Positions 36,691-54,292 of a stretch of 64,000 nucleotides of DNA are shown in pieces. Under the pieces are notes generated by a model. It was not told where the DNA came from. It did no database searches and saw only the letters and a program-made list of their open reading frames with translations. Each line of letters opens with the position of its first letter. Within the stretch, counting starts at the first letter, position 1. The translations under genes and the position numbers were made by a program. Where the stretch lies: assembly GCF_000733935.1 (NCBI RefSeq), contig NZ_JPON01000001.1, positions 372,001 through 436,000 on the forward strand. Reading direction: 5' to 3'. This DNA comes from Methylomarinum vadi. GTDB lineage: Bacteria > Pseudomonadota > Gammaproteobacteria > Methylococcales > Methylomonadaceae.

Positions 36691-37036
36691 TGATGGTTCT
36701 CGAACGAAAATAAATGATGGCAATTGAAATTAAAATGGGGAATTTGTGGGCGTAGGTTGTTTGATTAAGCGAGATGATTTAAATAGACCTTTATCGCTAT
36801 TTTGGAAATGAGGAATTGCAAGATTCACCTTGTCCCTTGGTTTTTTTTGATGAATGGTGAAATGGAATTGGTGCGAAAGTCAGTCATTATACGTGTTAAC
36901 AACCGACTGGCAACACTGCTTGCCCGTTAGTTTTGAACTAGGTCCAGAAAAATTAAATAAGTCATCTCCGGCATAGCCGGAGATTTATTACGATACGCCC
37001 TCGAAGGGTTCTTATGCAGCTTTTATTTTTGGTGAT
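36691..37036. other. Intergenic gap with two hairpins
   Basis: No gene is supported. The left half is AT-rich and should hold the promoter of the leftward membrane protein gene; no clear -35/-10 pair was found. The right end holds the two hairpins given separately. Confidence 0.5.
36964..37008 (-). terminator. Tandem hairpins at the end of the kinase/deacetylase operon
   Basis: On the minus strand the transcript passes CCCT-TCG-AGGG (37008-36998), then ATCTCCGGC-TAT-GCCGGAGAT (36984-36964), a perfect 9-bp stem. TTATTTAATTTTTC begins a few bases after the second stem, a loose T-rich tract. It is a probable terminator for the leftward operon. Confidence 0.65.
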
Positions 37037-38827
37037 TTACAGATCTCTCAACATTTCCAGCATCTCCCGTGCCTGGGTATGGTTTGGATTCAAGCACAGT
37101 GCCGATTCCAGGTTTTCGATCGCCTCGGAAATTTTATCGTTATTGAAATGCTCTATGGCGATAGCGTAGAAATCGTCGGCCATCGCTTTCGGGTCTTTGG
37201 TTAAGGTAATATGACAATCTTTACGGCTGATGCTCGGTTTGATTTTTATCTCTACCGGAATCGATGGCAAGGTGAGTTTCATTCCTTCGCTTAAATCCGC
37301 CTCGTCCGTGACATTGTTATTGAAGAGCGGGACCAAAATGGCCTTTTCGGGGTCTTGATAGATCTGGCTGGCAATCGAAGCAAAGCTGTCGCTTGCCTTG
37401 ACTTGATAGAGCAAAGGCCGATTTTTTCCCATATTCGTTTGAAACAACTCGATTGGCGCCTTGTTTTCCGGATTGAATAATAATGTTTGTAACAGTAATC
37501 CACGCGCGCTGTCATCATGCATATTTTTGATCGCGGCTAGATAAGATTGTTTCGAGATGTCGTTTAATTTAATGGTTAATTCCAATACCTTTCGCTTGGC
37601 TTCGGCGATGGATTGTTTCAGATTCAGCAATTCGGATTCGGCATTTTGATCGTTCGGGTTAATTTGATTCAATCTTGACAGTAGTTTGTCGCGGCGCAGT
37701 TTCCAAGCCAATAAGGCGCTGCGCCACTGATTGTTGTTTTCGAAGTGCTGCGGCGTTTGTGCGGTGATTTTGGCCAGTGGCGTTAAGGTATCGACGGGCT
37801 CTGAGGGCGCGATGTCGACCTGTTTAAAATAGTCGAGATTTTTAATGAATTGTCCGAGCGAGAAGGTGCCATAAATCATCGAGCGATTGAGTTTCAAGCT
37901 TTGTAAATAAAAGGGGTTGCCCTGTCGATTGACGGTAAAGGCTGTTTTATAGCCCTGTAATCTGAGCAAGGCCATGACGAGTGGATTGGTGTTGCCGAAT
38001 GGGTAGGCCAGCGCAGTAACGCGTTTACCCAGCTTTTCATAAATGATTTGTTTCGACTTTGTCACATCCTGGTTCACCGCCCGGATATACTCGGCAAAGG
38101 ATTCGTTGCCGTTGATGGTGCTGAGGTCTCGATGTGATTTACTGTGGCATTGAATGTCGATGATGCTGTCGGACACCATCTCCTTGAGTTGAGCCCAACT
38201 AACCGCACGGTTGCTGCCCGAATTAATGAAATCCGTCGGAATAAACAGCGAGGCATTGAAACCGAACTCCCTGAGCAGAGGGTAGGCGATTTCGTAACTG
38301 GAAATCCAACCGTCATCGAGACTGATCAGTACAGACCGCTCGGGCACTTGGCCATAATCGAGAAACTCAATCAATTGGTCCATGGTGATGACATGGTAAT
38401 TGTGTTCTTTTAAATAGTGGAGTTGTTCCCGGAAGTCTTTTGCCGAAACCGTTAATTTATTCGAGCTGGGACCACGGCTGAAGTTGTGATAGCTCAACAC
38501 CGGCACCAGTTGATAGCCGTTCGCGGTCATTCCACCGGGCCGGAAGGGTTTCAAGGGAATGATAATTTCCTGGCCGGCCAGTGCCTGTTGGACGCCGTTA
38601 AATTCTTCGATGCGCCATGCCAAATCGGCATTTCCGGTATATTGCCGCGCTAAAGACTGAAGGCTATCGCCAGTTTTCACCGTGACGAATTGAAAATCGA
38701 TCGGCTGTTCGGGTTGGGGTAAGTGTTTTGCGCATCCACTGATCAGGGCTATCAATAGAAGGATGCAATATGTGTTAACGGTACAAGCGATGCCTTTCAT
38801 ATTCTTGAGCTTACAGTGGCTATACAT
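37037..38827 (-). CDS. LysM - NodB polysaccharide deacetylase - LysM - TPR lipoprotein
   Basis: 596 residues. The signal peptide has a lipobox at C32 (LISGC). LysM 1 covers about 46-93 (VKTGDSLQSLARQY). The NodB/PgaB-like deacetylase domain covers about 105-330, with metal-site SLDDGW (D171, D172), HSKSH (H228, H232) and AYPFG. A charged helical region covers 365-460. LysM 2 is at about 475-522 (VKASDSFASIASQIY) and a TPR-like pair is at 550-592. It should bind peptidoglycan and remove N- or O-acetyl groups in the periplasm. The ATG at 38827 follows AGGAAG. It lies 38 nt after the Ser/Thr kinase gene on the same strand, in an apparent two-gene operon. Confidence 0.88.
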   Translation of the reverse strand: MYSHCKLKNMKGIACTVNTYCILLLIALISGCAKHLPQPEQPIDFQFVTVKTGDSLQSLARQYTGNADLAWRIEEFNGVQQALAGQEIIIPLKPFRPGGMTANGYQLVPVLSYHNFSRGPSSNKLTVSAKDFREQLHYLKEHNYHVITMDQLIEFLDYGQVPERSVLISLDDGWISSYEIAYPLLREFGFNASLFIPTDFINSGSNRAVSWAQLKEMVSDSIIDIQCHSKSHRDLSTINGNESFAEYIRAVNQDVTKSKQIIYEKLGKRVTALAYPFGNTNPLVMALLRLQGYKTAFTVNRQGNPFYLQSLKLNRSMIYGTFSLGQFIKNLDYFKQVDIAPSEPVDTLTPLAKITAQTPQHFENNNQWRSALLAWKLRRDKLLSRLNQINPNDQNAESELLNLKQSIAEAKRKVLELTIKLNDISKQSYLAAIKNMHDDSARGLLLQTLLFNPENKAPIELFQTNMGKNRPLLYQVKASDSFASIASQIYQDPEKAILVPLFNNNVTDEADLSEGMKLTLPSIPVEIKIKPSISRKDCHITLTKDPKAMADDFYAIAIEHFNNDKISEAIENLESALCLNPNHTQAREMLEMLRDL

Positions 38828-38865
38828 GGTTCAATGCTTCCTAATGTGCCTGGATATAGAGAGGT

Positions 38866-41800
38866 TTATTTTAATAATTCTTTTTCCAGGGCTTCCCGGA
38901 CCGTTTGAATGGGCTCTAGCGACAAGCCGAGCATGAAATATTCATTGGCAATCGATGGTTGATTGCTTTTTTTGAAATTTCGCCCCTTGAATAAACAACG
39001 TAATGCGATGAGGTTTTTAGTTTTTCTGACGAATTCCTTGCCGTTTTCGCCGCTACCATTGCCCCCGTTATTGAATCGTTCCCAGTGATTGAGCACGTCG
39101 GCTAATTGAGGAATCGCTCCAGGGGTATCCGTCAATTTGAGCAGTCTTTTTTTCAGTTGGTCAAAAACAGCGTTATTTTGCGTTAAGTAACCGGAATCGA
39201 TAGTGCGGAGTTTCAATAGCGGGTTGAAAATTGCCTGCCCCTGTAAACGGTCGGCATGAATGGCGGTTAAGCTTTCTTGAGCTAATTGCTTGAGTCTTGA
39301 ATTTTTGCTGGCGACGATGAGGTTTTCCAGGTTCGCAGTTTCTCTGTTATCGGGCAACATAGCCTGCAGTTTTGCCACTGTTTCCAAAGCCTTATCGTAC
39401 GCATCTTGTTGGATTAACGATTCGATATGTGTGCGATAAAAAGCGATGAGTTGTTTGCTCAATGGGTTGATGATCTTTTCCTGGTCGCCGTGAGAGGATG
39501 TCGTTTTAATGTCCTTGATTGCCTGCTCGATTGATTTGAGTTGGCCGCCTTCGATCGCCTGTTGCAGTTTGCGGGACAGTTTTTCTCGATTTTGGAAGGC
39601 TATCAGTTGCGCCTGTCTTTTCTCCGTTAACTGTTTGTAAGTGTTGCTATTTGAGTCCGCCGGTTTCAACGCCTTCCAGTCGTTCAATAGACGAGCGGCC
39701 AAAGCGAACTGTTCGTTATCGATGGCGGTATCGATTTTGGCAGAGTAACTTTCACCGATTGTGGGTAGAGTCAGCAAGTCATGCTCGGGTGATACCCGCG
39801 AAACGGCTTTTAGGAGGGCCTGGATATGCGTTATATTGGGCTCCTCGTGTTGCAATTCCGTCTGGTAGTCGTGCGTTAACGAGTCAAGGTATCTCGTTTC
39901 TCGTAGTTGCACGCTTTTGGCCAGCGCCTTTAGCTCGAGTACTTCGGCGCGGTTGCCGGAAAATAAGTTTATGCCATCCGTAACCAGGGACAGTGCCGGT
40001 TTGAAGTTGTTTTCCTCTAAATAGGCGGTAACCGAATCCTGGTAAAATTGCAGTAATCGCTGTTTGACCGCAGGGCGAGATAATGTCTGTTGGCGCACAA
40101 CAGTATTGGCTTGCTGCAATGTCGTTATTTGTTGTTGCAGTTGATTGTCATCGCTCGATTGTAACTTCTCGCTTAATGCCTCGATCTCCCTCGATATCAG
40201 CAGTTGTTGTTCGAGCTGGGCGCGACGCTCATTTTCCTGCGGTTCCAAGCTGCGCCACTGGTCCAGCAATTGAGTGGCAGGTTCGATTTGTCCGTTATTC
40301 AAATAAGACTGGGTCTCTTTGTCGAAGCGAGTCGTTAAGGTTGCGGACGCCGGCAAGCTAATTGTATCGTCGATTTTCCGCAGGCGCTCTTTGCTGTCGA
40401 GCAAGCATGGCGATAATTCGAGCAAAGGCCGAGAAATATCGAACAGGCATTGGCGGTATTGGCTTAATAAGGCCGCAATTGTTGTTTGGCGTTTAGGTTC
40501 GATCGAACGGGCGTGTTCCATCAGTTGTATTGAGTCGGGATATTGTTGCAAGAGCTCCTGCGATAATTGTTGCGCCCGGTCGAACTCATCGGCGGCAATC
40601 GCTTGTTCAATCAAGCCGATAAAATGTGCAATTAAATATTCTCTGACTTTTTGATTGGATAATAAAGCTTGTTTAATAGGGGGGGCTAGCTGTTCGATAA
40701 AGCGCAGAACGTCCAGCTTCTGGTAATGCGTGGCGGCTAATTTGAGTAAGGCCGACCGCAGCGCCGGATCGTTGACCAGCACCATTTGATCTTGTAGGGC
40801 AAGCATTTTGAAGTCCTCTAATCCCTCGGATTCTCCTTCGCTGATTGTCGCTTTGACGCGGTTGAAACGCCAACTGTCATAGGCTTGATAAGCAAGGTAG
40901 GGAAGCAGGATTAATGCTAACAGGGTTAATGCGCCGGCAATTATTTGCCGCAGGCGTTTTTTTTCGGCGATTATTCGGGGAGAAAACAATTCGTCATAAA
41001 ACTGTTTGGCGCTGGGGGTCCTGTCGTTACGATGGAAGCTGAGTCCATGTAAAATGGCATTGAACTCATCCCTGCTCAAGCCTTGAATGGGTTTCGGCCG
41101 CATCTTCGCGCCTTCCGCCTTCAAGGCCAAGTTCTTGTCGAATGGATGTCGGCCGGACAGCAGTTCATAAACGACGCAGGCCAAGCCATAAATATCATCG
41201 CGCGGATCGGGTTCCTCTTGTATCAACATTTCAATGCTGGCATAGGCTGTCGTCATCGCGCCCAGATTGCCGGGGTCGAAACGTGTCTTATCGCGGTCCT
41301 GGCGGCTGCTGAGCCGGGCGATGCCGAAATCGATGACTTTTCCGATACCCGTTTGCGGGTTGTAAAAAACATTGCCGGGCTTGAAATCGAGGTGGATGAT
41401 GCCTTCATGATGCGCGTAATCCAGGGCGTCGCACATCGCTTTGATGATGGGTTGCGCCTCCTTAAGAGAGATGCCTTCGGGATGATTCTTGATAAATTGT
41501 TTTAATGACAAGCCTTCGAGATACTCCATGGCGATGAAGACCTCTGATTCATCCCGGTTTAATTCGTAGGCTTTGACGATATTAGGATGAATCAGTTTTT
41601 TATAGCGGGCGAATTCCCTGACCAGGGCTTTGAGGGCGTCGGGATGGCTTCTGATTTCATGATTAATGAATTTGATCGCGGCATATTTGTCGCGTGATTC
41701 GCCAGCGTCCTGAATCAGGTCCAATGCTTTCCAGACCTCTCCCATGCCGCCGCTGCCTATTTTGAAGTCTAACTGATAAGTGCCCCTGATGATTTGACCG

Positions 41801-42189
41801 GGTTTGATGTTTTTTCTTTCCTTGCTCGCATCCCAGCGCAACAGGTCTTGTAGCAAAGAGGAAGATTGAGTGTGGTGGGCTTTACTGTCGGCGGCGGCTT
41901 GAGAATCGGATGGGGAAAAGTTCGAGTCTGTGGGGTGGGGGAAGATGCGGGTCTTTTGCTCAATTAACTTATTCAATAAAAGCCGGTTTAAATCGGGCGG
42001 TAAATTCGCTGCAGAAACCAAATCGCTTAATTCTTGACGACCGCCGTTGTTTGCTACCACGTCACTTTGCATCAGAATACTGTCCAATGCGTCAATAACT
42101 TCCTTATCCCCGATTTCCCCTTGAGCGAAGGCGGCGAGTTGCTCGGTAAAACCAGACTTTAATTCATCCCAAGAGTCCGATCCTTTCAT
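38866..42189 (-). CDS. Transmembrane Ser/Thr protein kinase of the T6SS locus (PpkA role)
   Basis: 1107 residues. A roughly 125-residue helical N-terminal region precedes the kinase domain at about 138-402. The glycine loop is GSGGMG (145-150), with K173 in AIKF. The catalytic loop HLDFKPGN (D268) lacks the usual Arg before Asp, and DFG is at 287-289. A TM segment at about 416-436 is followed by a long periplasmic region of about 670 residues made of helical, TPR-like repeats rich in Gln and Leu. In HSI-I systems PpkA phosphorylates the FHA protein; here the kinase is divergent from fha/tagH. The periplasmic part differs from the von Willebrand-type domain of P. aeruginosa PpkA, so it is a different sensor. 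Confidence 0.9.
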   Translation of the reverse strand: MKGSDSWDELKSGFTEQLAAFAQGEIGDKEVIDALDSILMQSDVVANNGGRQELSDLVSAANLPPDLNRLLLNKLIEQKTRIFPHPTDSNFSPSDSQAAADSKAHHTQSSSLLQDLLRWDASKERKNIKPGQIIRGTYQLDFKIGSGGMGEVWKALDLIQDAGESRDKYAAIKFINHEIRSHPDALKALVREFARYKKLIHPNIVKAYELNRDESEVFIAMEYLEGLSLKQFIKNHPEGISLKEAQPIIKAMCDALDYAHHEGIIHLDFKPGNVFYNPQTGIGKVIDFGIARLSSRQDRDKTRFDPGNLGAMTTAYASIEMLIQEEPDPRDDIYGLACVVYELLSGRHPFDKNLALKAEGAKMRPKPIQGLSRDEFNAILHGLSFHRNDRTPSAKQFYDELFSPRIIAEKKRLRQIIAGALTLLALILLPYLAYQAYDSWRFNRVKATISEGESEGLEDFKMLALQDQMVLVNDPALRSALLKLAATHYQKLDVLRFIEQLAPPIKQALLSNQKVREYLIAHFIGLIEQAIAADEFDRAQQLSQELLQQYPDSIQLMEHARSIEPKRQTTIAALLSQYRQCLFDISRPLLELSPCLLDSKERLRKIDDTISLPASATLTTRFDKETQSYLNNGQIEPATQLLDQWRSLEPQENERRAQLEQQLLISREIEALSEKLQSSDDNQLQQQITTLQQANTVVRQQTLSRPAVKQRLLQFYQDSVTAYLEENNFKPALSLVTDGINLFSGNRAEVLELKALAKSVQLRETRYLDSLTHDYQTELQHEEPNITHIQALLKAVSRVSPEHDLLTLPTIGESYSAKIDTAIDNEQFALAARLLNDWKALKPADSNSNTYKQLTEKRQAQLIAFQNREKLSRKLQQAIEGGQLKSIEQAIKDIKTTSSHGDQEKIINPLSKQLIAFYRTHIESLIQQDAYDKALETVAKLQAMLPDNRETANLENLIVASKNSRLKQLAQESLTAIHADRLQGQAIFNPLLKLRTIDSGYLTQNNAVFDQLKKRLLKLTDTPGAIPQLADVLNHWERFNNGGNGSGENGKEFVRKTKNLIALRCLFKGRNFKKSNQPSIANEYFMLGLSLEPIQTVREALEKELLK

Positions 42190-42615
42190 GACACCCCAAA
42201 AAAATTCTGATTAAGAAAAATTTAAAGTCCTTATTAAGCTATATTTCCTAAAGTTCAAATCAAAGAATACAACTAAACTGGTAAAAATATAAGTTGATGC
42301 AGCCTTTGACGCGATCAAAAAATGGTAGGTAAAGGTTTACCGGCTTGACTTTGGAAACGTTAATTCGTCGGCGAGGCTTTTACCTTGTTTATCCATACGG
42401 CTTGCGTTGTTTTTATAGTATTCTGACCTTAGCTGATCACAGTCTACTACAAAAGGAATGCCGACGTTAGTGACGTTAAAAACGCCCGTGGATGCATGCT
42501 TGATTTAGTTAATGGGGTTACGTTATATTGAGTTTTGCTTGAATGCCGCGTCGTCATTAGCAAAGCTCAGAAATTAATTATAAATAATAGCCCTGGGCAA
42601 GGGATGAGAGGAAAT
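42190..42615. other. Divergent regulatory region of the T6SS locus
   Basis: A 426-bp region between the kinase and fha start codons. The left 200 bp is AT-rich. No gene is supported; an in-frame extension of fha to 42535 lacks a ribosome binding site. It must hold promoters for both directions; only the rightward one can be proposed from sequence. Confidence 0.5.
42500..42528 (+). promoter_or_regulatory. Candidate sigma-70 promoter of the main T6SS operon
   Basis: TTGATT (42500-42505), a 17-nt spacer and TTATAT (42523-42528), about 88 bp before the fha/tagH ATG. Confidence 0.5.
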
Positions 42616-44142
42616 ATGAAGCTTGTTTTAAGTGTCATATCGCAGACTGGGGCGGCGATGGAGAAGATTTCTCTTGACCAGCAATCCGCGACTATTGGCC
42701 GGGCCCAGGATAACACTCTTGTTTTGGAAGACCCCAAACGCTATATTTCCAGTCATCATGCGGTAATTGATTACCGTTCTCCCGATTATTATTTAACCGA
42801 TACCAGTACCAACGGCGTCATCATTAACGATGCGACACAACCGTTAGGCAAGGGAAATAGCGTCCGATTAAACGATGGCGACCGGCTTCATGTCGGCGAT
42901 TACACCCTCTCGGTAACACTCCTCGAATCGGCCTCGGAAACGGCGGCGGAAGTTTCCCCGGGTCCGTTGTTCGATGAACAGTTTACTTTCGAAGAAGATC
43001 CTTTCGCCGAGTTAGGTAAAGATGCCGTGCAAGAGATGATTGATGAAAATCAATTAGTGCCGGAAAAGTGGCAGGGCTCGGAAGATCAATCCGATCATGT
43101 CCTGGACTTTCCTTCGTCGGACGAGACAACAGGGAAGAAAGAAAAAGAAGAAGTCGAACAACCGCCCGCTTATAAGGAAGCATTCGAACCCTTCCAAGGC
43201 AAGAGCGAGAATAAGCAAACCGAAGCCGCCGATATCTTTGCCGAAGATTGGTTTTTGGATAAGAAGGAGGAAACAAAGCCCGAAGCGCAAGATCCCTTCG
43301 CCGGAGACTGGTTGGCGGATAAAGGGGAAGACAAGAAAGCGGCCGGCAAAGAACCCCTTTCCGAGGATTTTTTTGCGGAAACTAAAACGAGCGCCGAGGA
43401 AAGTCGGCAGCAGAAGGAACCGGCAGTAACGGAGGACACTAGCGAACAAGAGGAAGCCAAGCGCCCCAGCCACCAAATACCCAGTCCTCCCAAACCTGCC
43501 GCCAAAATCGATGCCGCTTCAGCCGAGCAAGTATTCGAACAAATTGTTCAACAATTTCTATTGGGAGCGGGATTGGAAGGAACCTCTCTTCAACAAGCAC
43601 TTACGCCGGAAACTTTTTACATCGTCGGCAAAATTTTGCGGGCTTCCGTGCAGGGGACGCTGGATGTATTGATTGGCAGAGCGAAAATAAAAAATGAAAT
43701 GCATTTGGATGTGACGATGATCAGGTCCAAGCAAAACAACCCGATAAAATTTTCGGTCAGCGCCGAAGAGGCGATCAAAAAGTTGTTGGCGCCGCAAGAC
43801 AGCGGCTATCTTTCCGCGGAAGATGCCATCGAAGAAGCGTTCGATGACATTAAAGCCCATCAATATTCAGTGATAGCTGGCATGCAAACGGCGTTGCTGG
43901 AAGTGTTGAAACGCTTCGACCCGCAAAAACTTGAAAACCGTTTGCAGGAAGAAAGCCCAATCAGCGCCAGCATCCCGATCCATAAACAGGCGAAATTATG
44001 GCGCCTGTTCGAGCACCTTTATAAGGATATCGAACACGAAGCGACGGACAACTTTTACCACTTGTTCGGCCAGGCGTTTGCCGAGACCTATCAACAGCAA
44101 ATCAACCAATTGAAAAGCGCCAAAAAAGAAACTCCTTTTTAA
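42616..44142 (+). CDS. tagH: T6SS FHA domain protein (Fha/TagH)
   Basis: 508 residues from the ATG at 42616, which follows AGAGGAAAT. The FHA domain (about 1-100) has ATIGRAQDNTLVL, the phosphothreonine-binding YISSHHAVI and TSTNGVIIND. A long acidic linker (about 110-300) contains three exact 20-residue units beginning at residues 206, 226 and 246 (DIFAEDWFLD, DPFAGDWLAD, EPLSEDFFAE). The conserved C-terminal TagH domain (about 305-500) includes LQQALTPETFYIVGKILRASVQGTLDVL. In HSI-I, Fha1 is phosphorylated by PpkA and dephosphorylated by PppA to trigger assembly. It is the first gene of the rightward cluster. Confidence 0.93.
   Translation: MKLVLSVISQTGAAMEKISLDQQSATIGRAQDNTLVLEDPKRYISSHHAVIDYRSPDYYLTDTSTNGVIINDATQPLGKGNSVRLNDGDRLHVGDYTLSVTLLESASETAAEVSPGPLFDEQFTFEEDPFAELGKDAVQEMIDENQLVPEKWQGSEDQSDHVLDFPSSDETTGKKEKEEVEQPPAYKEAFEPFQGKSENKQTEAADIFAEDWFLDKKEETKPEAQDPFAGDWLADKGEDKKAAGKEPLSEDFFAETKTSAEESRQQKEPAVTEDTSEQEEAKRPSHQIPSPPKPAAKIDAASAEQVFEQIVQQFLLGAGLEGTSLQQALTPETFYIVGKILRASVQGTLDVLIGRAKIKNEMHLDVTMIRSKQNNPIKFSVSAEEAIKKLLAPQDSGYLSAEDAIEEAFDDIKAHQYSVIAGMQTALLEVLKRFDPQKLENRLQEESPISASIPIHKQAKLWRLFEHLYKDIEHEATDNFYHLFGQAFAETYQQQINQLKSAKKETPF
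43231..43410 (+). repeat. Three 60-bp tandem units in tagH
   Basis: Units start at 43231, 43291 and 43351, in frame. Encoded units begin DIFAEDWFLD, DPFAGDWLAD and EPLSEDFFAE, each followed by ten mostly Lys/Glu residues. A possible more diverged unit precedes at 43171 (YKEAFEPFQG). Similarity is clearer in protein than in DNA. Confidence 0.7.
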
Positions 44143-44166: not shown

Positions 44167-44634
44167 ATGCAAATTTTTAAATTAAGTTTGATTTTGGCAT
44201 TTCTGATACTGCAGGGGTGTAGTTCCGAGCCGGAAAAACCGGAACCGCCGCCAACCATTATTTCGGCTAAGATTGCGGTATCGGGCAAAGCAAATCCCGA
44301 TGTCAGTGGCCGGCCGTCGCCCATCGTGATTAGGTTGTATGAGCTGAAGAGTCTCGGTAAATATGTCGAAGGCGATTTCTACGATTTATTCGAAAACTAT
44401 GATTCATCGCTAGGTTCCGATCTGCTCAGCTCCGAACAATTTCATCTCAAGCCAGGCGATATACATACCTTAAAACACGAAGTTTCGCCCGATACCCGCT
44501 TCATCGCCGTCGTCGCCGCTTATCGCGATCTCGACCGCGCCGTTTGGCGGGACTCGATCATGATACCGGCGGAAAAGACCACCGATTTATTCGTTTTTGC
44601 CGAGCCGTTAACCGTCAGTATATGGAAAAAATAA
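44167..44634 (+). CDS. tssJ: T6SS outer membrane lipoprotein TssJ
   Basis: 155 residues. Lipoprotein signal with C18 in LILQGCSSE. The mature transthyretin-like sandwich has ISAKIAVSGKANPDVSGRPSPIVIRLYEL, typical of TssJ/VasD, and ends with the family's FAEPLTVSIWKK-type strand. It anchors the TssM C-terminal domain at the outer membrane and forms the TssJLM complex with the gene products downstream. It lies 24 nt after tagH. Confidence 0.94.
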   Translation: MQIFKLSLILAFLILQGCSSEPEKPEPPPTIISAKIAVSGKANPDVSGRPSPIVIRLYELKSLGKYVEGDFYDLFENYDSSLGSDLLSSEQFHLKPGDIHTLKHEVSPDTRFIAVVAAYRDLDRAVWRDSIMIPAEKTTDLFVFAEPLTVSIWKK

Positions 44635-44718: not shown

Positions 44719-46059
44719 ATGTCATGGAATAACAAGGTCATCTGGACCGAAGGCATGTTTCTGCAGCCTTCCCATTTTCAACAACAGGATCGTAATATTC
44801 AGAATTGGATCGAATCCCGCTGTGGAGGATTGCAAGTTTATTCCTGGGGAATCACGCATTTAGCAATCGATCAGCAGCTCTTGTCGCTGGGCAAATTCGC
44901 CGTCTCAAGTTGCAAAGGGGTTTTTCCGGACGGTACGCCGTTCAATATTCCCGACCAGCATCCGTTGCCGGTGCCGTTGGACATCAAGACCGACACCAAA
45001 AACCAAATTGTCTATCTGGCGTTGCCGGTTAAGCGCAGTGCCGGCAAGGAAGTCGCTTGGGAGCAGGATCAGCTGGATGAATCGAACCGTTATCTTATGC
45101 AAGAGATTGAGATCAAGGACGTTCATTCCCAGTCAGAACAAAATAGCACGGTCATCCAAAGCGGAGAATTATGGACCCGGCTGCGTTTGTCGTCTCTGAG
45201 CCAGGATGCTTTCGTAACGATTCCAATCGCCAGAGTTCTGGAAATGAAGGTCGATAAGCAGGTCGTATTGGATCCCAATTTCATTCCCACCAGTTTGCAT
45301 TGCCAAGCCGCCGAACCCATCATGAATTTTATCGAGGAGATTTCGGGTATTTTGCATCACCGCGGCGAGGCATTGGCGCAAAGGCTGGGTTCGCCCGGCG
45401 CCGGCGGTGTGTCGGAAATCGTCGATTTTTTACTGCTGCAAATTGTGAATCGCTACGAACCTTTGTTCAATCATTGGAGCGAATTAAATCAATTTCACCC
45501 GGAACGTCTCTTCAGCGTATTGCTGCAAATGGCCGGCGAATTGGCGACGATAACCCAACCCGACCATCGCTTTAAGCCGTTTCCGGCCTATCAGCACACC
45601 GATCTGCAGCAATCCTTCGAGCCGGTAATTGCCGCCTTGCGCAAGGCCTTGAGCTGGGTATCGGAAAGCAGAGCGATACCGATTCCATTGGAAGAACATC
45701 CTCACCAAATCAGAACGGCGCTGATCAAGGATAGACAGTTATTGACGAGCGCGGAATTCGTTTTGGCGGTCGGCGCCCAATTGTCGCCCGATACCATTCG
45801 TTCCCAGCTACCCAGACAGACCACTATCGCTACGGTGGAAAAATTGCGCGACTTGGTCATGTCGCAAGTGCCGGGCATCAAATTGAACCCCATGGCGGTC
45901 GCCCCCAGGCAAATTCCTTATCACAAGGGTAAAATCTATTTCGAATTAGATAAGAATCATGCTTTATGGAAGGACCTGCAGCAAAGCGGCACTATAGCGA
46001 TGCACTTTTCCGGTGAGTATCCAGGATTGGAGCTCGAATTCTGGGCGATACGAGGATAG
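44719..46059 (+). CDS. tssK: T6SS baseplate-membrane adaptor TssK
   Basis: 446 residues of the ImpJ/VasE family. The N-terminal NKVIWTEGMFLQPSHFQQQDR is the family signature (shell domain binding TssFG). The middle is helical, and the C-terminal head (about 315-446) that contacts TssL/TssM ends with PGLELEFWAIRG. The stop overlaps the GTG preceding tssL. An 84-bp gap from tssJ shows no other gene. Confidence 0.95.
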   Translation: MSWNNKVIWTEGMFLQPSHFQQQDRNIQNWIESRCGGLQVYSWGITHLAIDQQLLSLGKFAVSSCKGVFPDGTPFNIPDQHPLPVPLDIKTDTKNQIVYLALPVKRSAGKEVAWEQDQLDESNRYLMQEIEIKDVHSQSEQNSTVIQSGELWTRLRLSSLSQDAFVTIPIARVLEMKVDKQVVLDPNFIPTSLHCQAAEPIMNFIEEISGILHHRGEALAQRLGSPGAGGVSEIVDFLLLQIVNRYEPLFNHWSELNQFHPERLFSVLLQMAGELATITQPDHRFKPFPAYQHTDLQQSFEPVIAALRKALSWVSESRAIPIPLEEHPHQIRTALIKDRQLLTSAEFVLAVGAQLSPDTIRSQLPRQTTIATVEKLRDLVMSQVPGIKLNPMAVAPRQIPYHKGKIYFELDKNHALWKDLQQSGTIAMHFSGEYPGLELEFWAIRG

Positions 46060-46064
46060 TGAAG

Positions 46065-47369
46065 ATGGCAAGCGACGATCCATTCTTTTCCCCGCAGGGC
46101 GATGACAAAACCATCATCAGGCCCGTCCCCGGCGGCAAACGCTCCGATCTGAGATCGGCACCTCCCGAGGCGAAGCCGGAACAGGTTGGCAGCGCCCAGC
46201 CGTTACCCAGGCTCGGTGGCTTGAATGCATTGGAAAAAGCCTCCTCCGGGCTTTTAGCCTTGCTGACCCGGATCAATACCTCGAGACGTCAAACCGACCC
46301 GATGGAGTTGAAAAATAAAATCGTCCGGGAAATCCAGCAATTTCAGATGGTGGCGCAAAGTGCGGGTGTGGATCCGCAAACAGTGTCATCGGCGCGCTAT
46401 GTTTTGTGTACGGTTTTGGACGAGGCGGTGTTGAACACTCCTTGGGGCAACGACAGCGGTTGGGCGCAACAAAGTTTATTAAGCCTGTTTCATAAAGAGG
46501 TTTCCGGGGGCGAACGTTTTTTTCATTTATTAAAATCGTTGGCGCAAAATCCGGGCAAGAATCGCGACTTGCTGGAATTGATGTATCTTTGTCTGGCATT
46601 GGGATTCGAGGGGCGCTATCGCTTGATCGAAGGGGGGAAAAACAAACTGATCGGTATCAAGGAGTGGTTATATCAGATTCTGCTACAGGAAAGAGGGACG
46701 CTCGCTCGGGAACTGTCCCCCCATTGGCAAGGCGTGACCGATCGCCGAAATCCGTTGATGCGTTTAGTGCCTTTATGGGTGTTCGGGGCCGCCGCGGCCG
46801 GAATCCTGGCCATTATGTACAGTGTTTTTTTGTTTCAGTTGAATAAGGACTCGGATCCCGTTTTTAGCCAAATCAATGCCATTAAGCCTCCCGTGCCGCA
46901 ATTCGTTGTGGAGGAGCCGGAACCGTCTTATACCCCGGTTCCCGAATTGACCCTGTCGATGCTATTGGCGGATGAAATCGATGCCAAGCGATTGAAGGTA
47001 TTGGAATTGGCTCAGCGCAGCACAATTACGATTCAAGGGGATAATTTATTCGCCTCGGGTAGTGCCTCGGTCAACCGCGATTTGATACCGGTTTTGCACC
47101 GAATCGCCGACGCCTTGAACCAATTGCCTGGACAGGTGTTAATTACCGGGCATTCGGATAATGTGCCGATTCGCAGCTCACGTTTTCCCTCCAACTGGCA
47201 TTTATCCAAGGCTCGAGCGGATGCGGTTGCGGAAGTAATCAAACAGAATTTGACCGTTCCCGACCGGACGGTGATCGAAGGGCGTTCCGACTTGGATCCC
47301 ATCGCCTCGAATAAAACACCGGAAGGGCGGGCTAAAAACCGTCGTGTCGAAATTACCTTACTTAAATAA
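46065..47369 (+). CDS. tssL: T6SS TssL (DotU) with C-terminal OmpA domain
   Basis: 434 residues from the ATG at 46065 with GAGG upstream; a GTG at 46059 is in frame. A disordered N-terminus (FSPQGDDKTIIRPVPGG) is followed by the cytoplasmic DotU domain (ARYVLCTVLDEAVLNTPWG, LGFEGRYRLIEGG). A TM segment (VFGAAAAGILAIMYSVFLF) leads to a periplasmic OmpA/MotB-like domain with GHSDNVP and LSKARADAVAEVI for peptidoglycan binding. This extended TssL removes the need for a separate TagL anchor, as in P. aeruginosa HSI-I. Confidence 0.95.
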   Translation: MASDDPFFSPQGDDKTIIRPVPGGKRSDLRSAPPEAKPEQVGSAQPLPRLGGLNALEKASSGLLALLTRINTSRRQTDPMELKNKIVREIQQFQMVAQSAGVDPQTVSSARYVLCTVLDEAVLNTPWGNDSGWAQQSLLSLFHKEVSGGERFFHLLKSLAQNPGKNRDLLELMYLCLALGFEGRYRLIEGGKNKLIGIKEWLYQILLQERGTLARELSPHWQGVTDRRNPLMRLVPLWVFGAAAAGILAIMYSVFLFQLNKDSDPVFSQINAIKPPVPQFVVEEPEPSYTPVPELTLSMLLADEIDAKRLKVLELAQRSTITIQGDNLFASGSASVNRDLIPVLHRIADALNQLPGQVLITGHSDNVPIRSSRFPSNWHLSKARADAVAEVIKQNLTVPDRTVIEGRSDLDPIASNKTPEGRAKNRRVEITLLK

Positions 47370-47441: not shown

Positions 47442-50400
47442 ATGAAGAAGCTATTGAATTTTATTAGGCAGCGTTGGTTTATTTCCTTGCTCGGGATCAT
47501 TGCGCTCGCCTTGCTGATATGGTTTGTTGGCCCGCTGTTTGCCTTCGCCGACTATTCCCCGTTGGAAGCAGAGGAAAACCGCTGGTTTTTAATTATTGGT
47601 TTGTTCCTATTCTGGCTGATCGTTCAACTTTGGTTTTATTACAAGAACAAAAAAAAGAATAACCAAGTGATGTCGGCGATGATGGGGACGGCCGAGCCGG
47701 GCTTGAGTCCCGATCAACAAGCTTCCATGGATGAACTGCAGACCTTGAAAAAAAGAATGCAGGAAGCGCTCGATATCTTAAAGCAAACCAAACTGGGCGG
47801 CGGATTCGATCGGCAATTTCTCTATCAATTGCCGTGGTATATCATCATTGGACCGCCGGGGTCTGGTAAGACGACGCTGCTGAAAAATTCCGATTTAAAA
47901 TTTCCTTTGTCCGATCGCTACGGTAAAGATGCCATTCGCGGTGTCGGCGGCACGCGTAACTGTGATTGGTGGTTCGCCGATGATGCCGTATTGTTGGATA
48001 CCGCCGGACGCTATACCACGCAAGACAGCCACGAAACGGTCGATCAGGCTGCTTGGTTGGGTTTTTTGGATTTATTGAAAAAAAATCGCAGCCGCCGCCC
48101 CATTAACGGGGTCATTATCGCCGTCAGCGTTGCCGATTTATTGCAGCAAAACTCCGAGCAACAATTGCAGCAAGCCACGGCGATACGCAAACGGATCCAG
48201 GAATTGTACGATCGGTTCAATATTCGTTTTCCAGTTTATTTGCTCTTTACTAAATGCGATCTGCTGGCCGGGTTCATGGAATTTTTCGACGACCTCGACC
48301 ATGAACAACGATCCCAGGTATGGGGCATGACCTTTCCGCTGGACGAACAAGAGCAGCATAATGCCCTGGAACAATTCAACAGCGAATTTCCGTTATTGCA
48401 ACAAAATCTGCAACGGCAATTGTTATACAAACTAGAGCAGGAGAGGAGCGGGGAACGACGTAATCTGATCTATACCTTTCCGCAGCAATTCAGTTCATTG
48501 CAGTCGGTGATCAAGCCTTTCCTGGAAGAAGTGTTCCAGACCAGCCGTTACGCGCATCCGGCCATGTTCCGCGGTATTTATTTTACCAGCGCGACTCAGG
48601 AGGGGTCGCCGATCGACCGGATCATGGGGTCGTTAGCCAATAATTTTGGCCTGGATAATCAATTGCAGACCGCCGCCAGCGGGCAGGGCAAAAGTTTTTT
48701 TATCAATCGCTTGTTGCGGTCGGTCATTTTTGCCGAATCCGGTCTGGCCGGCACCAACCTGAAATTGGAAAAAAAACGTTTCTGGATGCAACGCGGCGCT
48801 TTCGTCGGCCTGGGCGCCGTCGCCGTATTGATGGCTGTTGTCTGGGTCACCAGCTATATGCGCAACCAAGCCTATATTGAGGATGTGGCAGCAAAAACCA
48901 GCAATTTGCAAAAGGACATCGAGACTATCGATCCCGAGCAGCCCGACCCATTAGTCGTTCTGCCGTTATTGAATCGTGCCCGCGATTTGCCTGGCGGTTT
49001 TGCCGATCAACAACACGGCGCGCCGTGGTCTTTGCGTTTCGGTCTGTATCAAGGGGACAAGCTGGGCGAAGCCGAAGTCTCCTTGTATCACAAATTGTTA
49101 AAAAACGTTTTTTTACCCAGACTGTTGTCGCGGCTTGAAAACCAGTTGCAAACCAATACCAACAATAGCGAATATTTATACGAGGCGCTTAAGGCTTATT
49201 TAATGATTGCCAGCGCGGAACATTACGATGCGGCGGCGATCGCCAATTGGTTTAAACTGGATTGGAAATATAACCTGCCGCTGGAAGTAACGACACAGCA
49301 GCGAAACGATCTCGATCAACATTTACAAGCCCTATTGGCGGTGCGGCCGGCGCCGATGCCCCGGCCTTTGAATGCGGCCCTGATCCAGCAAACGCGCGAC
49401 TTGTTAATGGATACGCCGGTCGCGCAACGCGTCTATTCACGGCTAAAATTGGAACTGAGTAACAACGATATCGCAGATTTTCGGGTCAGCGAAAAAGCCG
49501 GCCGGGATGCGCCGTTGATCCTAATCAGCAAGAGTGGCAAACCGTTGAGTAGCGGTGTTCCGGGGCTCTTTACCTGTGCCGGTTATAAAGAGGTTTTTTT
49601 ACCTAACAAGGAGCGGCTTATCGATCGGCAAGCGAGTGATAATTGGGTCTTTGGGATAAAGGACGAAAAAACACTTTCCAAGGAAGAATTGAAAGTGTTG
49701 CAGGAAGACGTGCTGAAATTATATCTGCAAGACTATATCAAGCATTGGGACGAATTATTGCAGGATATACAGCTCAAACCCTTTACCAGTCAGGTGCAAA
49801 TGGTCGAAATGCTCAATATCATTTCCGGCGAACACTCACCGATAAAATTATTTTTGCAATCGGTGGATCAGGAAACCAGCATGGCTTGTCTGGCTAAAAA
49901 AGAAGATTCCTTGCTGGCCAAAGCCAGCGAAAAGTTCGATAGCGCCAGATCGTCATTAGACCGCATCATGAGCACGACACCGGAAGCCAGGGGCACTGCC
50001 GGTACGGAAGTTACCATCAATATGGTGACCGATTATTTCAAAGGGCTGCATGAAATCGTGCTGAGCAAAGACGGCGTCCCTCCGCCACTGGACCGCACCT
50101 TGTCGGTCTTGAACGAATTATATGTTTATCTCAATTCGTTGTTGCATGCCAGCGGCGACGAATTGGTGATGGAGCAACGGAAACAAATCGTCCAGGTGAT
50201 CGAGAAAGTCAAATTGGAAGGTAAGCGAACGCCATTCCCTGTCAGCAGCATGATGGATAGTATCGCCGAAGGTAGCGGTAACCTGGTCAGCGGCGGTATC
50301 CGGAAGCATTTGAATGCGATGTGGCGTTCGACCGTTCTTCCTTTTTGCCAGAAAGCCATCCAGGGCTTGTATCCGATCGCTAAAAATTCCCGTGAAATTA

Positions 50401-51002
50401 CCTACGAGGATTTTACTTATTTCTTCGGACCAGGCGGGCTGATGGATGAGTTCTTCAATAAATATCTGGCCGCCTCGGTCGAAAAGGGCGGCAAAAACTG
50501 GCGCTGGAATTCTCGTGGCGAAGGCGGTGGCGGCATTTCCTACGGCGCCTTGAAACAGTTCCAGCGGGCCGATAACATCAAGAATATCTTCTTCCGCATG
50601 GGTAAACAGGCGCCTACGGTGAGTTTTAAGTTGAAGCCGATTTCAATGAGCCCTTCCATCGTGCAGTTCGTCATGGATGTCGACGGACAGGTTTTGACGT
50701 ATGCCCATGGGCCGCTCAGACCGGTGGCGATGAAATGGCCGGGGCCGAATAATTCCGGTCAGGTAAGAGTGCAATTGTTACCTCCATTACAAGGTTATTC
50801 CGGTCTGTCGAAGGACGGTCCCTGGGCGTTGTTCCGGGTTTTCGATGAAGCGCATATTGCCCGCACTTCCAATCCGGCCATCTTTATCATGACATTCAAC
50901 ATTCAAGGGCGCGAGGTTAAGCTTGAATTACAAGCGAATAGTGCTGTCAATCCTTTTCAATTAAACGACCTGCAATCCTTTCAATGCTTATCGAATCTAT
51001 AG
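47442..51002 (+). CDS. tssM: T6SS inner membrane protein TssM (IcmF)
   Basis: 1186 residues. Two N-terminal TM segments, a cytoplasmic NTPase domain with intact Walker A GPPGSGKT (137-144) and DTAGRYTTQD (switch region), a third TM at about 452-471, then the large periplasmic part whose C-terminal beta domain (about 1050-1186) docks TssJ. Length and order are normal. An intact Walker A suggests nucleotide binding, which not all TssM proteins keep. The 3' end overlaps tagF by 19 nt. Confidence 0.96.
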   Translation: MKKLLNFIRQRWFISLLGIIALALLIWFVGPLFAFADYSPLEAEENRWFLIIGLFLFWLIVQLWFYYKNKKKNNQVMSAMMGTAEPGLSPDQQASMDELQTLKKRMQEALDILKQTKLGGGFDRQFLYQLPWYIIIGPPGSGKTTLLKNSDLKFPLSDRYGKDAIRGVGGTRNCDWWFADDAVLLDTAGRYTTQDSHETVDQAAWLGFLDLLKKNRSRRPINGVIIAVSVADLLQQNSEQQLQQATAIRKRIQELYDRFNIRFPVYLLFTKCDLLAGFMEFFDDLDHEQRSQVWGMTFPLDEQEQHNALEQFNSEFPLLQQNLQRQLLYKLEQERSGERRNLIYTFPQQFSSLQSVIKPFLEEVFQTSRYAHPAMFRGIYFTSATQEGSPIDRIMGSLANNFGLDNQLQTAASGQGKSFFINRLLRSVIFAESGLAGTNLKLEKKRFWMQRGAFVGLGAVAVLMAVVWVTSYMRNQAYIEDVAAKTSNLQKDIETIDPEQPDPLVVLPLLNRARDLPGGFADQQHGAPWSLRFGLYQGDKLGEAEVSLYHKLLKNVFLPRLLSRLENQLQTNTNNSEYLYEALKAYLMIASAEHYDAAAIANWFKLDWKYNLPLEVTTQQRNDLDQHLQALLAVRPAPMPRPLNAALIQQTRDLLMDTPVAQRVYSRLKLELSNNDIADFRVSEKAGRDAPLILISKSGKPLSSGVPGLFTCAGYKEVFLPNKERLIDRQASDNWVFGIKDEKTLSKEELKVLQEDVLKLYLQDYIKHWDELLQDIQLKPFTSQVQMVEMLNIISGEHSPIKLFLQSVDQETSMACLAKKEDSLLAKASEKFDSARSSLDRIMSTTPEARGTAGTEVTINMVTDYFKGLHEIVLSKDGVPPPLDRTLSVLNELYVYLNSLLHASGDELVMEQRKQIVQVIEKVKLEGKRTPFPVSSMMDSIAEGSGNLVSGGIRKHLNAMWRSTVLPFCQKAIQGLYPIAKNSREITYEDFTYFFGPGGLMDEFFNKYLAASVEKGGKNWRWNSRGEGGGGISYGALKQFQRADNIKNIFFRMGKQAPTVSFKLKPISMSPSIVQFVMDVDGQVLTYAHGPLRPVAMKWPGPNNSGQVRVQLLPPLQGYSGLSKDGPWALFRVFDEAHIARTSNPAIFIMTFNIQGREVKLELQANSAVNPFQLNDLQSFQCLSNL

Positions 51003-51763
51003 TTAACGGATATTACGGCAAAGTTCCTACGCATGGAGATTTCGTAAGCAGGGGCTTGCCGGCCAGTTTCATCGATCCCTGGGATGCCTGGCTACAGGAG
51101 GCCGTAATAACCAGTCGGCGGCAATTGGGTAATAATTGGCTGGATAGTTACCTGACCAGTCCGATTTATCGTTTTGTGCTTTCTCCAGGTATTTGCGGCG
51201 AACATAGCTGGCTGGGAATTTTGATGCCCAGTGTCGATAGGGTGGGGCGCTATTATCCGATGACCATTGGCCTGCTGAATCAACATAACATCAACCCTTT
51301 TCTTGCCATGCAACGAGAAGTAACTTGGTTCACCAATGCCGAAACCCTAGCTCTCTCCAGTCTGGCCGATAATTTTAACCTGCAGGAATTCAACGACCAA
51401 TTGAGCCGGTTGAGCCCCGAAATACTGAATGATAACTGTGTCAACGGTTTCGATGAGGAACCCAGCGAACGTCAGCCCAGTCATCACGCCTGGCAACAGA
51501 CGTTCGGCAATAAACAAAACATCTGCGATGTTTTACCTTGTTTTTTGGACACACAATTGAAAGAACAATTCTTTGCCTATAGCGTTTGGTGGACGCAAGG
51601 CTCAGAACGGGTTGCTCCTTCCTTATTGATTTGCGAAGGTTTGCCGCCTTTCGATGGCATGGCGGCGATGTTCGACGGTAATTGGAAAAAATGGGGATGG
51701 GAAGGGAACCGCTATCCTTCTTTGCCGTTTGGAAATCAAGGAAACAATCAACGCAATGCCTAG
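50984..51763 (+). CDS. tagF: T6SS-associated protein TagF (ImpM family)
   Basis: 259 residues. The N-terminal GYYGKVPTHGDFVSRGLPASFIDPWDAWLQ and SPGICGEHSWLGILMPSVDRVGRYYPMTI are typical of TagF. In P. aeruginosa TagF is a posttranslational repressor that acts on Fha1 independently of the threonine phosphorylation pathway. Here it sits between tssM and the phosphatase gene, overlapping both, which matches tagF/pppA linkage in HSI-I-type clusters. Confidence 0.93.
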   Translation: MLIESIVNGYYGKVPTHGDFVSRGLPASFIDPWDAWLQEAVITSRRQLGNNWLDSYLTSPIYRFVLSPGICGEHSWLGILMPSVDRVGRYYPMTIGLLNQHNINPFLAMQREVTWFTNAETLALSSLADNFNLQEFNDQLSRLSPEILNDNCVNGFDEEPSERQPSHHAWQQTFGNKQNICDVLPCFLDTQLKEQFFAYSVWWTQGSERVAPSLLICEGLPPFDGMAAMFDGNWKKWGWEGNRYPSLPFGNQGNNQRNA

Positions 51764-52487
51764 TACGTCATGGTTATCCTACGGTAGAACCCATATAGGG
51801 AAAATTCGAAGTATCAATCAGGATGCATTCGCCAATATACCGGAGAAAAGCCTGTGGGTGGTCGCCGATGGGATGGGAGGACATAAGGATGGAGATTTCG
51901 CCAGTCGCGCGATCGTCAAAGCCATGCAGGATCTGGAGCCAACGAAATACATCGGCGCAACAGTCAAACGGATTTATCAACAATTGCATCATGTCAACCA
52001 ACATCTCCTCGATCATGCGGCGGTTCATGGCGAGAACGACGTCATTGGCAGCACGGTCGCAATATTACTGGCGCATCGTCATCATTGCGTGACGATGTGG
52101 TCGGGGGATAGTCGCATTTATCTCTTCAGGCGTGGCATATTGAAGCAAATCACTCGCGACCACAATAATGAGTCCAAACTGTTGGCGGACGGCTATTCCA
52201 TGGAGGAAATCAAGCAGAATCCCTATGCGCAAACTTTGACGCATGCTATCGGTGGGGAAAGTGAAGTTTTTCTTGATGCTCAAGCATTGGAAGCCTGCCA
52301 TGACGATATTTTTCTGCTGTGCAGCGATGGGTTGACCAAGGAAGTGGCGGACAGTGAGATCGAAGACATTCTCGGGCAGGCGCCTTACCGGCAGGCGGTC
52401 GATCTTTTAATGGATTTGGCTCTTCTGAGGGGAGGACGCGACAATATCACCGTGCTGGTGGTGAAATGTTGTCGCCAAACCGCTTAA
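51756..52487 (+). CDS. pppA: PP2C-type Ser/Thr phosphatase of the T6SS (PppA role)
   Basis: 243 residues from the ATG at 51756, overlapping tagF by 8 nt. PPM-family motifs: SINQDAFANI, LWVVADGMGGHKDGDFAS (metal-binding aspartates), WSGDSRIYLFR, LLCSDGLTKEV and GGRDNITVLVV. All metal ligands appear present, so it should be active. It is expected to reverse the kinase action on TagH and so disassemble or retune the apparatus. Confidence 0.94.
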   Translation: MPSTSWLSYGRTHIGKIRSINQDAFANIPEKSLWVVADGMGGHKDGDFASRAIVKAMQDLEPTKYIGATVKRIYQQLHHVNQHLLDHAAVHGENDVIGSTVAILLAHRHHCVTMWSGDSRIYLFRRGILKQITRDHNNESKLLADGYSMEEIKQNPYAQTLTHAIGGESEVFLDAQALEACHDDIFLLCSDGLTKEVADSEIEDILGQAPYRQAVDLLMDLALLRGGRDNITVLVVKCCRQTA

Positions 52488-52624: not shown

Positions 52625-53686
52625 ATGGTGATGTCGTTGGCCGACCTAAATCTAGAACAATTGCTTCAAGACATTTCAGCGGACGCCCCTTGTGGTGAAA
52701 ACCTCGAAGAAGATCCGTTATTTTTGCAGCTGGAGGATGCGGCCCGTTTTGTCGAAGAAAGGCAAATGGGGGACTCGATCATTCCCGCCGAGGAACCTGA
52801 CTGGAAAGTCGTGCGTAAGCTGGCCGTGGAATTGCTGGAGCGCAGTCACGATGTACAAATTGCCATGCATTTAATTTGTGCTTTGGTCAGAATGGAGGGG
52901 TTCGCTGGATTGCAGCAAGGGTTGGCACTGATCAAGGGTTGGCTGCAAGACCATTGGGACGAAGTCTATCCATTGCAAGATCCCGAGGACGATTATCCGA
53001 TTCTACGCATCAATACCTTGTCCGGCTTAAACGATTATCGGTTAATCGTCGGCCCGGTCAATCATCTGCCGTTGACTCAATCGGCCATGGGAAACTTTTC
53101 CTGGCGCGAACATGAAATCGCCCATGGAAAAATAACGGTTTCCGGCGAGGAAGAACAACCTGATCCAACCATCATCGATGCGGCATTTAATGATACCGAT
53201 TTTGACGTGCTCAAATCCTTACAGGACGCTGTTAGACAGTCCCTGGCATTAGTGAAGGAACTGTTGACCATAGTCATCGAAAAAGCGGACACTGTTAATG
53301 CCCCGGATTTGTCGGCGTTGACGAATATATTGGGGAGCATCGATGGCTTGTTGACCGAGAAAATCCAGGAAAGGCCGGAAAACGAGGCTATTAGCCAAGC
53401 AGTCGAAGGCTCGGGTGAAGAAGGTAGCGTGGCTGCCGGAGAACAACCGGCCATTGCAAAAGCGGTAAAAAAAGAAGGAATCCACAGCCGGGAAGATGTG
53501 GTGCGCGCGATCGATGAAATTTGCAAATATTTCGAGCGGTACGAACCGTCCAGCCCCGTACCTTTTTTACTGTTGAGAGCCAAAAAGCTACTGTCGATGA
53601 ATTTTATCGATATTCTTCGTGACTTGACCCCCGACGCGGTACATCAAGCGGAAAACATCTGCGGAATACAAAACAACGAAGACTAA
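52625..53686 (+). CDS. tssA: T6SS protein TssA (ImpA-type, short form)
   Basis: 353 residues. The N-terminal ImpA_N region has SADAPCGENLEEDPLFLQLEDAAR and LIKGWLQDHWDEVYP. A linker follows (about 250-290), and a C-terminal helical segment SREDVVRAIDEICKYFERYEPSSPVPFLLLRAKKL. The short class resembles TssA1 of HSI-I, which contributes to baseplate priming. The 137-bp gap upstream (52488-52624) is AT-rich and could hold an internal promoter; none is convincing. Confidence 0.93.
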   Translation: MVMSLADLNLEQLLQDISADAPCGENLEEDPLFLQLEDAARFVEERQMGDSIIPAEEPDWKVVRKLAVELLERSHDVQIAMHLICALVRMEGFAGLQQGLALIKGWLQDHWDEVYPLQDPEDDYPILRINTLSGLNDYRLIVGPVNHLPLTQSAMGNFSWREHEIAHGKITVSGEEEQPDPTIIDAAFNDTDFDVLKSLQDAVRQSLALVKELLTIVIEKADTVNAPDLSALTNILGSIDGLLTEKIQERPENEAISQAVEGSGEEGSVAAGEQPAIAKAVKKEGIHSREDVVRAIDEICKYFERYEPSSPVPFLLLRAKKLLSMNFIDILRDLTPDAVHQAENICGIQNNED

Positions 53687-54290: not shown

Positions 54291-54292
54291 CC

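Follow-up and report, generated by a model that had tools for sequence, protein, structure and literature searches.

Does the kinase encoded beside a type VI secretion system (T6SS) in Methylomarinum vadi have a partner at the cell wall? The question is raised by a stretch of 64,000 nucleotides (nt) of contig NZ_JPON01000001.1 (positions 372,001 to 436,000; here called the window), in which the gene for a serine/threonine kinase (P0002) is followed, 38 nt downstream and likewise on the minus strand, by the gene for a lipoprotein with LysM and CE4/NodB deacetylase domains (P0001). The unit diverges from tagH, which belongs to a T6SS cluster spanning tagH at 42535 to tssH at 63510 (Table 1). We propose, at a probability of about 0.5, that the kinase and the lipoprotein belong to the T6SS threonine-phosphorylation pathway as a conserved accessory module, in which the lipoprotein would be the wall-bound input of the kinase. 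Relatives of the deacetylase are found beside a kinase near T6SS genes in other families, which suggests an undescribed link between cell-wall state and T6SS firing. An initial annotation of this DNA had reported both open reading frames (ORFs) and the gap between them; both ORFs are present in the window's ORF list, and the re-measured coordinates and spacing are correct. The shared strand, the short gap and a terminator-like stem-loop after the deacetylase gene (36984-36964) suggest that the two genes may be under one promoter; terminator-like sites number 10 in the window against a mean of 8.6 in shuffles.

Association of the unit with T6SS genes

Proteins of the LysM-CE4 type were found in 26 genomes over all surveys (6 + 4 + 16, with G585 counted once), and 23 of these genomes contain tssK. 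At most 15 kb separate the unit from T6SS genes in 14 of the 26 (the window, G145, G149, G257, G645 and nine members of one large genus, including G585), where G149 is counted by its kinase, only the 5' part of which is on the T6SS contig. In G670 and G672 it shares a contig with tssK, at a distance of about 30 and 42 kb, and in seven genomes (G018, G142, G374, G661, G613, G659 and G648) the two are on different contigs; the remaining three genomes have neither tssK nor tssC. The possibility raised in the initial annotation, that the pair might occur mostly in genomes without a T6SS, is thus answered in the negative by the survey.

The closest integration is seen in G645, where tagH, kinase, CE4 gene, TPR lipoprotein gene and tssJKLM follow one another on the same strand in an operon-like order. 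The kinase adjoins tagH in the window, G145, G149 and G257, and with G645 this adjacency extends over three families (f1, f24 and f143). Two kinase profiles detected no second kinase in the T6SS stretch of G585 (L117) or in L116 of G645. These relatives support a link between LysM-CE4 proteins and T6SS better than the window alone would. We also considered the deacetylase gene as a chance neighbour, a reading that we reject in view of the conserved gene pair and the in-operon case of G645.

The co-occurrence can be put in numbers at three levels, with the caution that all p-values assume independent genomes, an assumption that their relatedness violates. In the order of G585, tssK is present in 16 of 16 deacetylase-positive and 36 of 103 negative genomes (Fisher p 3.9e-7), 15 of the 16 positives belonging to one genus. 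The class sample gives 4/6 against 67/363 (p 0.014), and the window's family gives 5/6 against 100/231, which is not significant (p 0.06). In the large genus, at least G629 and G715 are tssK-positive and have no LysM-CE4 protein.

Outside the window's family, the unit consists of three separate genes, for the kinase, the LysM-CE4 protein and a TPR lipoprotein. The TPR lipoprotein gene is 3' of the CE4 gene in all 20 outside loci (the match in G659 is broken in two) and overlaps it in 15, by 4 nt in 12 of them. The kinase gene is 5' of the CE4 gene and on the same strand in 18 of 19 readable loci; 17 of these 18 kinase genes overlap the CE4 gene or lie within 83 nt of it, the overlaps depending on start choice, and one lies at 357 nt. 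Of the partner kinases, the two that were profiled contain sCache and HAMP domains; the other 16 resemble the first one's sensor part in BLAST searches. These loci come from a class sample of 369 genomes (five loci) and from the order of one of its positive members, G585 (fifteen more). In the class sample, 16 genomes passed E 1e-30; we counted the six strong matches (G000 and five further genomes at 259-293 bits, the five lacking the C-terminal extension of the window protein) and excluded ten generic CE4 matches (109-152 bits, starting at profile position 59-106). The order of G585 has LysM-CE4 proteins in 16 of 119 genomes, 15 of them in one genus, and the orders of G257 and G545 returned only the genome already known (1/8 and 1/6, respectively).

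Within the window's family, the full-length LysM-NodB-LysM-TPR protein occurs in 6 of 237 genomes and 3 of 29 genera; tssK is present in 105 of the 237, including five of the six. The kinase is found upstream of the fused protein wherever sequence exists, whole in the window, G145 and G018 and as a 3' end only in G142 and G149; in G019, the sixth member, the deacetylase gene is at a contig edge with no upstream sequence. In G149 the 5' part of the long kinase adjoins tagH at the edge of the T6SS contig, and the deacetylase gene is on another contig together with the kinase 3' end. The contig of the G019 deacetylase also carries three particulate monooxygenase subunits, and because of this the family probably consists of methane oxidisers. 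T6SS regions were fetched from 46 of the 105 tssK-positive genomes besides the window; many of them end at contig ends or about 9 kb from tssK, and what they miss makes the counts lower bounds. A kinase was found in 18 of the 46, the long window type in two (G145 and G149); the other T6SS-region kinases of the family are different and, with one exception, 396-655 residues long as read. A T6SS-region kinase ORF of 1481 residues in G196 (L071, 1917-6362), with about 1100 residues after the kinase domain, is unlike the other kinases of the family.

Domains and relationships of the lipoprotein and the kinase

The NodB-homology domain of P0001 scores 61.9 bits with PF01522 (Polysacc_deac_1; cut-off 23.1). 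The signature of CE4/NodB enzymes is an Asp-Asp pair and an HxxxH motif that provide the metal and base residues, and the metal residues D171, D172, H228 and H232 are identical in 26 of 26 relatives, as are the seven LysM-region residues examined. Given this identity, catalysis appears to be under selection, and binding probably is as well. The domain aligns with solved PgaB chains and other deacetylases and is most like PgaB and IcaB, both by its best solved relatives and by NCBIfam models; its scores are well under the equivalog cut-offs (PgaB 111.3 against 321.9 bits, IcaB 86 against 248 bits), and P0001 falls outside the PgaB equivalog. The lipobox reads LISGC-A; 16 of the 26 relatives match this strict pattern as well. 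An Asp at position +2 of a lipoprotein leads to retention, which is the basis of the outer-membrane sorting rule; P0001 is probably anchored in the outer membrane.

The kinase domain of P0002 matches Pkinase (PF00069) with 133 bits against a cut-off of 31.7. A hydrophobic stretch at about residues 415-434, recognised by eye from the sequence, is followed by some 670 residues that are all-helical in a single-sequence structure model of low confidence (mean pLDDT 52.5). Among the window's ORFs of at least 100 amino acids, two kinase profiles detected no second kinase. P0002 is encoded together with Fha/TagH and a PP2C phosphatase, and since no other kinase was detected in the window and the cluster contains the phosphatase and TagF, P0002 would be the natural partner for Fha here.

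The initial annotation had drawn P0001 as a LysM domain, a deacetylase, a second LysM and TPR-like helices, and had given the kinase about 670 residues of TPR-like sequence in the periplasm. The first LysM domain and the deacetylase with its intact Asp/His site hold up, as does the length of the kinase's C-terminal part, which is predicted to be helical and to lie in the periplasm behind a putative membrane segment. The second LysM was recovered by profile-profile comparison only, Pfam giving no match in P0001 and a sub-threshold one in the relative P0006 (19.5 against 20.9 bits). Pfam calls no TPR in either P0001 or P0002, and its TPR match in the relative P0008 is sub-threshold.

Profile-profile comparison of the C-terminal part of the P0001 family places a match to the TPR lipoprotein first (93-94% probability) and one to a LysM-TPR lipoprotein after it (96-97%), and from this order we read the window protein as a probable fusion of parts that are encoded separately elsewhere. 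The crossed comparisons are weak (29-36%), and in the ORFs of 48 family loci both lipoprotein profiles match only the fused protein of G145. Against a fusion, the TPR-lipoprotein profile misses P0001 itself in a single-protein search, and the LysM-TPR profile matches P0001 at E 2.7e-5 and an unrelated window protein (30171-30863) at E 1.8e-5. With the kinase, too, the LysM-TPR profile finds a match in the predicted periplasmic part (69% probability), an indication that helical repeats match generically. A LysM-TPR lipoprotein gene lies within the fetched stretch in 12 of the 20 outside loci. In nine of these 12, which are T6SS loci of one genus (L036 15810-17174, L103 2702-4060 and similar), it adjoins the PP2C gene close to where the T6SS genes end; its product is another possible wall-binding accessory.

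The kinase-domain tree comprises 37 domains, the short piece L097 having been dropped by the length filter. One clade (100/100) unites the four long kinases (window, G018, G145 and G149); it is nested in a group of 18 that also holds 13 further kinases from T6SS regions of the family and the second kinase of G545. On the opposite side of a branch with 100/100 support are the 17 partner kinases found in other families, together with two divergent kinases of the window's family; as a group, the 17 have support of 89/86 only, and long branches in the tree make fine placement unsure. The same deacetylase family thus adjoins two sorts of kinase, which differ in the kinase domain and in the periplasmic part. 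The second kinase of G545, a genome without tssK and tssC, is about 6 kb from the kinase/CE4/TPR trio (L035, 5003-8563 and 14772-16283); its grouping with the T6SS-region kinases of the window's family perhaps points to a T6SS since lost, of which this would be a remnant, or to an independent use of the module.

Another CE4 match, a weak one (30% identity), is present in the genome of the window, and a scan of genome contigs with P0001 returned two generic CE4 loci only. P0001 hit 910 records of a plasmid collection, in no case over 80% of its length, and the G585 deacetylase protein had no match there at E 1e-30.

Proposed function and its alternatives

In the mechanism that we propose, the kinase would do the job of PpkA, phosphorylating from the inner membrane the TagH/Fha protein encoded divergently alongside, and the PP2C phosphatase of the same cluster would oppose it. 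The lipoprotein would bind peptidoglycan via LysM and act as a CE4 deacetylase, and its helical repeats would contact the large periplasmic part of the kinase. It might hold the kinase at a site on the wall or report from there, and local deacetylation of glycan might prepare the site or form part of the signal. A more far-reaching version makes the peptidoglycan deacetylase the sensor-effector arm of the T6SS trigger kinase: its LysM domains and catalytic cycle would read, and also write, wall acetylation, such that the kinase fires only at the right wall state. We consider this version possible but doubtful; if it is true, wall chemistry chooses the place of T6SS assembly.

Several observations weigh against an accessory module of the T6SS. 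LysM-CE4 proteins occur without tssK or tssC in G019, G269 and G545, whose genomes are 98, 86 and 96% complete, and the unit of G269 adjoins genes that we take to be chemotaxis and motility genes. The CE4 and TPR genes of G374 stand without an adjacent kinase gene, and the T6SS, on another contig, has a kinase of its own. In G018 tagH was found divergent from tssA, and hence the kinase-deacetylase pair is elsewhere. The CE4 profile matched only in G145 across the 46 fetched T6SS regions of the family, and in a phylum sample the fused protein was present in 1 of 200 genomes, namely that of the window. The single-sequence structure model of P0001 is below usable confidence (mean pLDDT 36). Finally, the fused protein is found in only 5 of the 105 tssK-positive genomes of the family. 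This rarity indicates an accessory and no general solution for passing the wall. The initial annotation had suggested a different solution to wall remodelling, or a wall-state sensor feeding the kinase. This is supported in part: the association with T6SS stands, and the protein may remodel the wall, sense it or do both.

The exceptions invite the explanation that the pair is a kinase module for envelope sensing in general, with no specific tie to T6SS, and stands beside T6SS genes in many genomes by chance. It would account for the three genomes without tssK and tssC, for the seven units on a contig apart from tssK and the two at about 30 and 42 kb, and for G374, where the unit is apart from a T6SS with its own kinase. 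However, it does not sit well with the co-occurrence in one order (16/16 against 36/103), the in-operon position in G645 and the adjacency of kinase and tagH in three families, and we regard it as unlikely. Slightly less improbable, in our view, is a deacetylase that is merely co-expressed with the kinase and serves, without signalling, in local wall remodelling or in protecting the cell's own wall against hydrolases. The active-site residues, identical in 26/26 with catalysis apparently selected, and the LysM domain fit such a role, and the wall enzymes TagX and MltE are linked to T6SS assembly in other species (PMC10433429, PMC10564176). Deacetylation alone, however, cuts no glycan, 100 of the 105 tssK-positive family genomes do without the fused protein, and outside the family the deacetylase gene stands behind a kinase gene at 18 of the 19 loci that can be read.

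The likeness of the CE4 domain to PgaB and IcaB, in its best solved relatives as in the NCBIfam models, would also fit an exopolysaccharide deacetylase acting on a secreted glucosamine polymer, an assignment made very unlikely by scores far under the equivalog cut-offs, by the LysM domain and by the neighbouring window genes scanned (a part of the window's genes), which gave no match to a polymer synthase. It is hardly credible that P0001 is an antibacterial T6SS effector: a PgdA-like deacetylase-domain protein is listed as a candidate effector of Salmonella SPI-21 (PMC13304343), but P0001 has a lipoprotein signal, its gene keeps its place behind the kinase gene, and the ORF list shows no obvious small immunity gene adjacent to it.

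Known systems and other features of the window

The window resembles the PpkA/PppA/Fha pathway of Pseudomonas, Serratia, Agrobacterium and Acidovorax in having a kinase gene next to that for Fha/TagH and, within the cluster, genes for a PP2C phosphatase and for TagF. It differs in that the kinase of the window's family has a predicted periplasmic part of about 670 residues and is paired with a deacetylase, and the two profiled kinases of other genera carry sCache and HAMP. The signal input of PpkA-type kinases is known for a small number of bacteria, whose partners, as described in the papers cited here, are unlike one another. TagQRST in Pseudomonas and RtkS in Serratia are presented as envelope inputs to a T6SS kinase (PMC6082577, PMC10433429), and TssW of Acidovorax, encoded between ppkA and fha, as affecting the activity and position of the apparatus (PMC12607579). 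RtkS, TagR and TssW share with P0001 that an envelope protein is proposed upstream of the kinase, and RtkS and TssW are, by the same sources, encoded beside pathway genes (PMC6082577, PMC12607579). RtkS is described there as lacking recognisable homology, whereas the window protein is a LysM-CE4 enzyme, and the TssW paper does not contain the words deacetyl- or LysM. Judged by gene position and domain architecture, the LysM-CE4 lipoprotein may be a good candidate for a role like that of TagR, RtkS or TssW, with wall binding and an enzyme in addition.

P0001 shares the CE4 domain and the metal residues with deacetylases of the PgaB/IcaB type but is surrounded by LysM and helical repeats in its CE4 part and scores under the equivalog cut-offs. 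With TagX, an endopeptidase, and MltE, a transglycosylase, it would share the character of a wall enzyme tied to T6SS assembly; those enzymes cut the wall, whereas a deacetylase modifies it. Deacetylases appear as listed or candidate effectors in two papers (PMC8861277, PMC13304343). The titles and abstract openings of the literature on T6SS with deacetylases, LysM or PpkA/Fha name no such kinase partner, mention within the texts being possible, and the papers searched yielded no described equivalent of an envelope partner that brings an enzyme domain to a PpkA-like kinase. Because the partner is conserved, carries an enzyme domain that binds the wall and accompanies two sorts of kinase in several families, wall state becomes a specific candidate for the signal.

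Table 1. Features of the unit and of the T6SS cluster in the window, with coordinates counted from the first nucleotide of the window.
Feature	Coordinates	Strand	Basis
P0001, lipoprotein: LysM - CE4 deacetylase - helices - LysM-like - TPR-like	37037..38827	-	596 aa
First LysM domain, residues 49-91 of P0001	38555..38683	-	Pfam E 5.4e-6
CE4/NodB deacetylase domain core, residues 160-295 of P0001 (D171, D172, H228, H232)	37943..38350	-	Pfam E 7.4e-17
Second LysM-like region, about residues 472-521 of P0001	37265..37414	-	profile-profile match to LysM-TPR lipoproteins, 96% probability
Terminator-like stem-loop 3' of the deacetylase gene	36964..36984	-	such sites about as frequent in shuffles
P0002, Ser/Thr kinase with putative membrane segment and long, predicted helical C-terminal part	38866..42189	-	1107 aa
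Kinase domain core, residues 138-354 of P0002	41128..41778	-	Pfam E 1.5e-38
Predicted periplasmic part of the kinase, residues 435-1107	38869..40887	-	hydrophobic stretch and low-confidence helical model
TagH/Fha (FHA domain T6SS protein), divergent from the kinase	42535..44142	+	NCBIfam TIGR03354, E 1.2e-90
TssJ	44167..44634	+	Pfam
TssK	44719..46059	+	Pfam
TssL with OmpA-type domain	46059..47369	+	Pfam DotU and OmpA
TssM	47442..51002	+	Pfam
TagF	50984..51763	+	Pfam
PP2C phosphatase (PppA-like)	51654..52487	+	Pfam PP2C_2; NCBIfam Stp1 187 bits, under the cut-off of 230
TssA	52625..53686	+	NCBIfam
TssB and TssC sheath genes	53745..55792	+	Pfam
Hcp	55887..56372	+	Pfam
TssF, TssG, TssH (ClpV)	57930..63510	+	NCBIfam and Pfam

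Downstream of the deacetylase gene and on the same strand (33312-36723), the window encodes a DUF3857/transglutaminase-like protein and one protein without a Pfam match; tblastn found no counterparts of them in the G145 stretches. The TssL of the cluster carries an OmpA-type domain. Domains of this type usually bind peptidoglycan, and the T6SS of the window may already possess a wall anchor besides the LysM protein.

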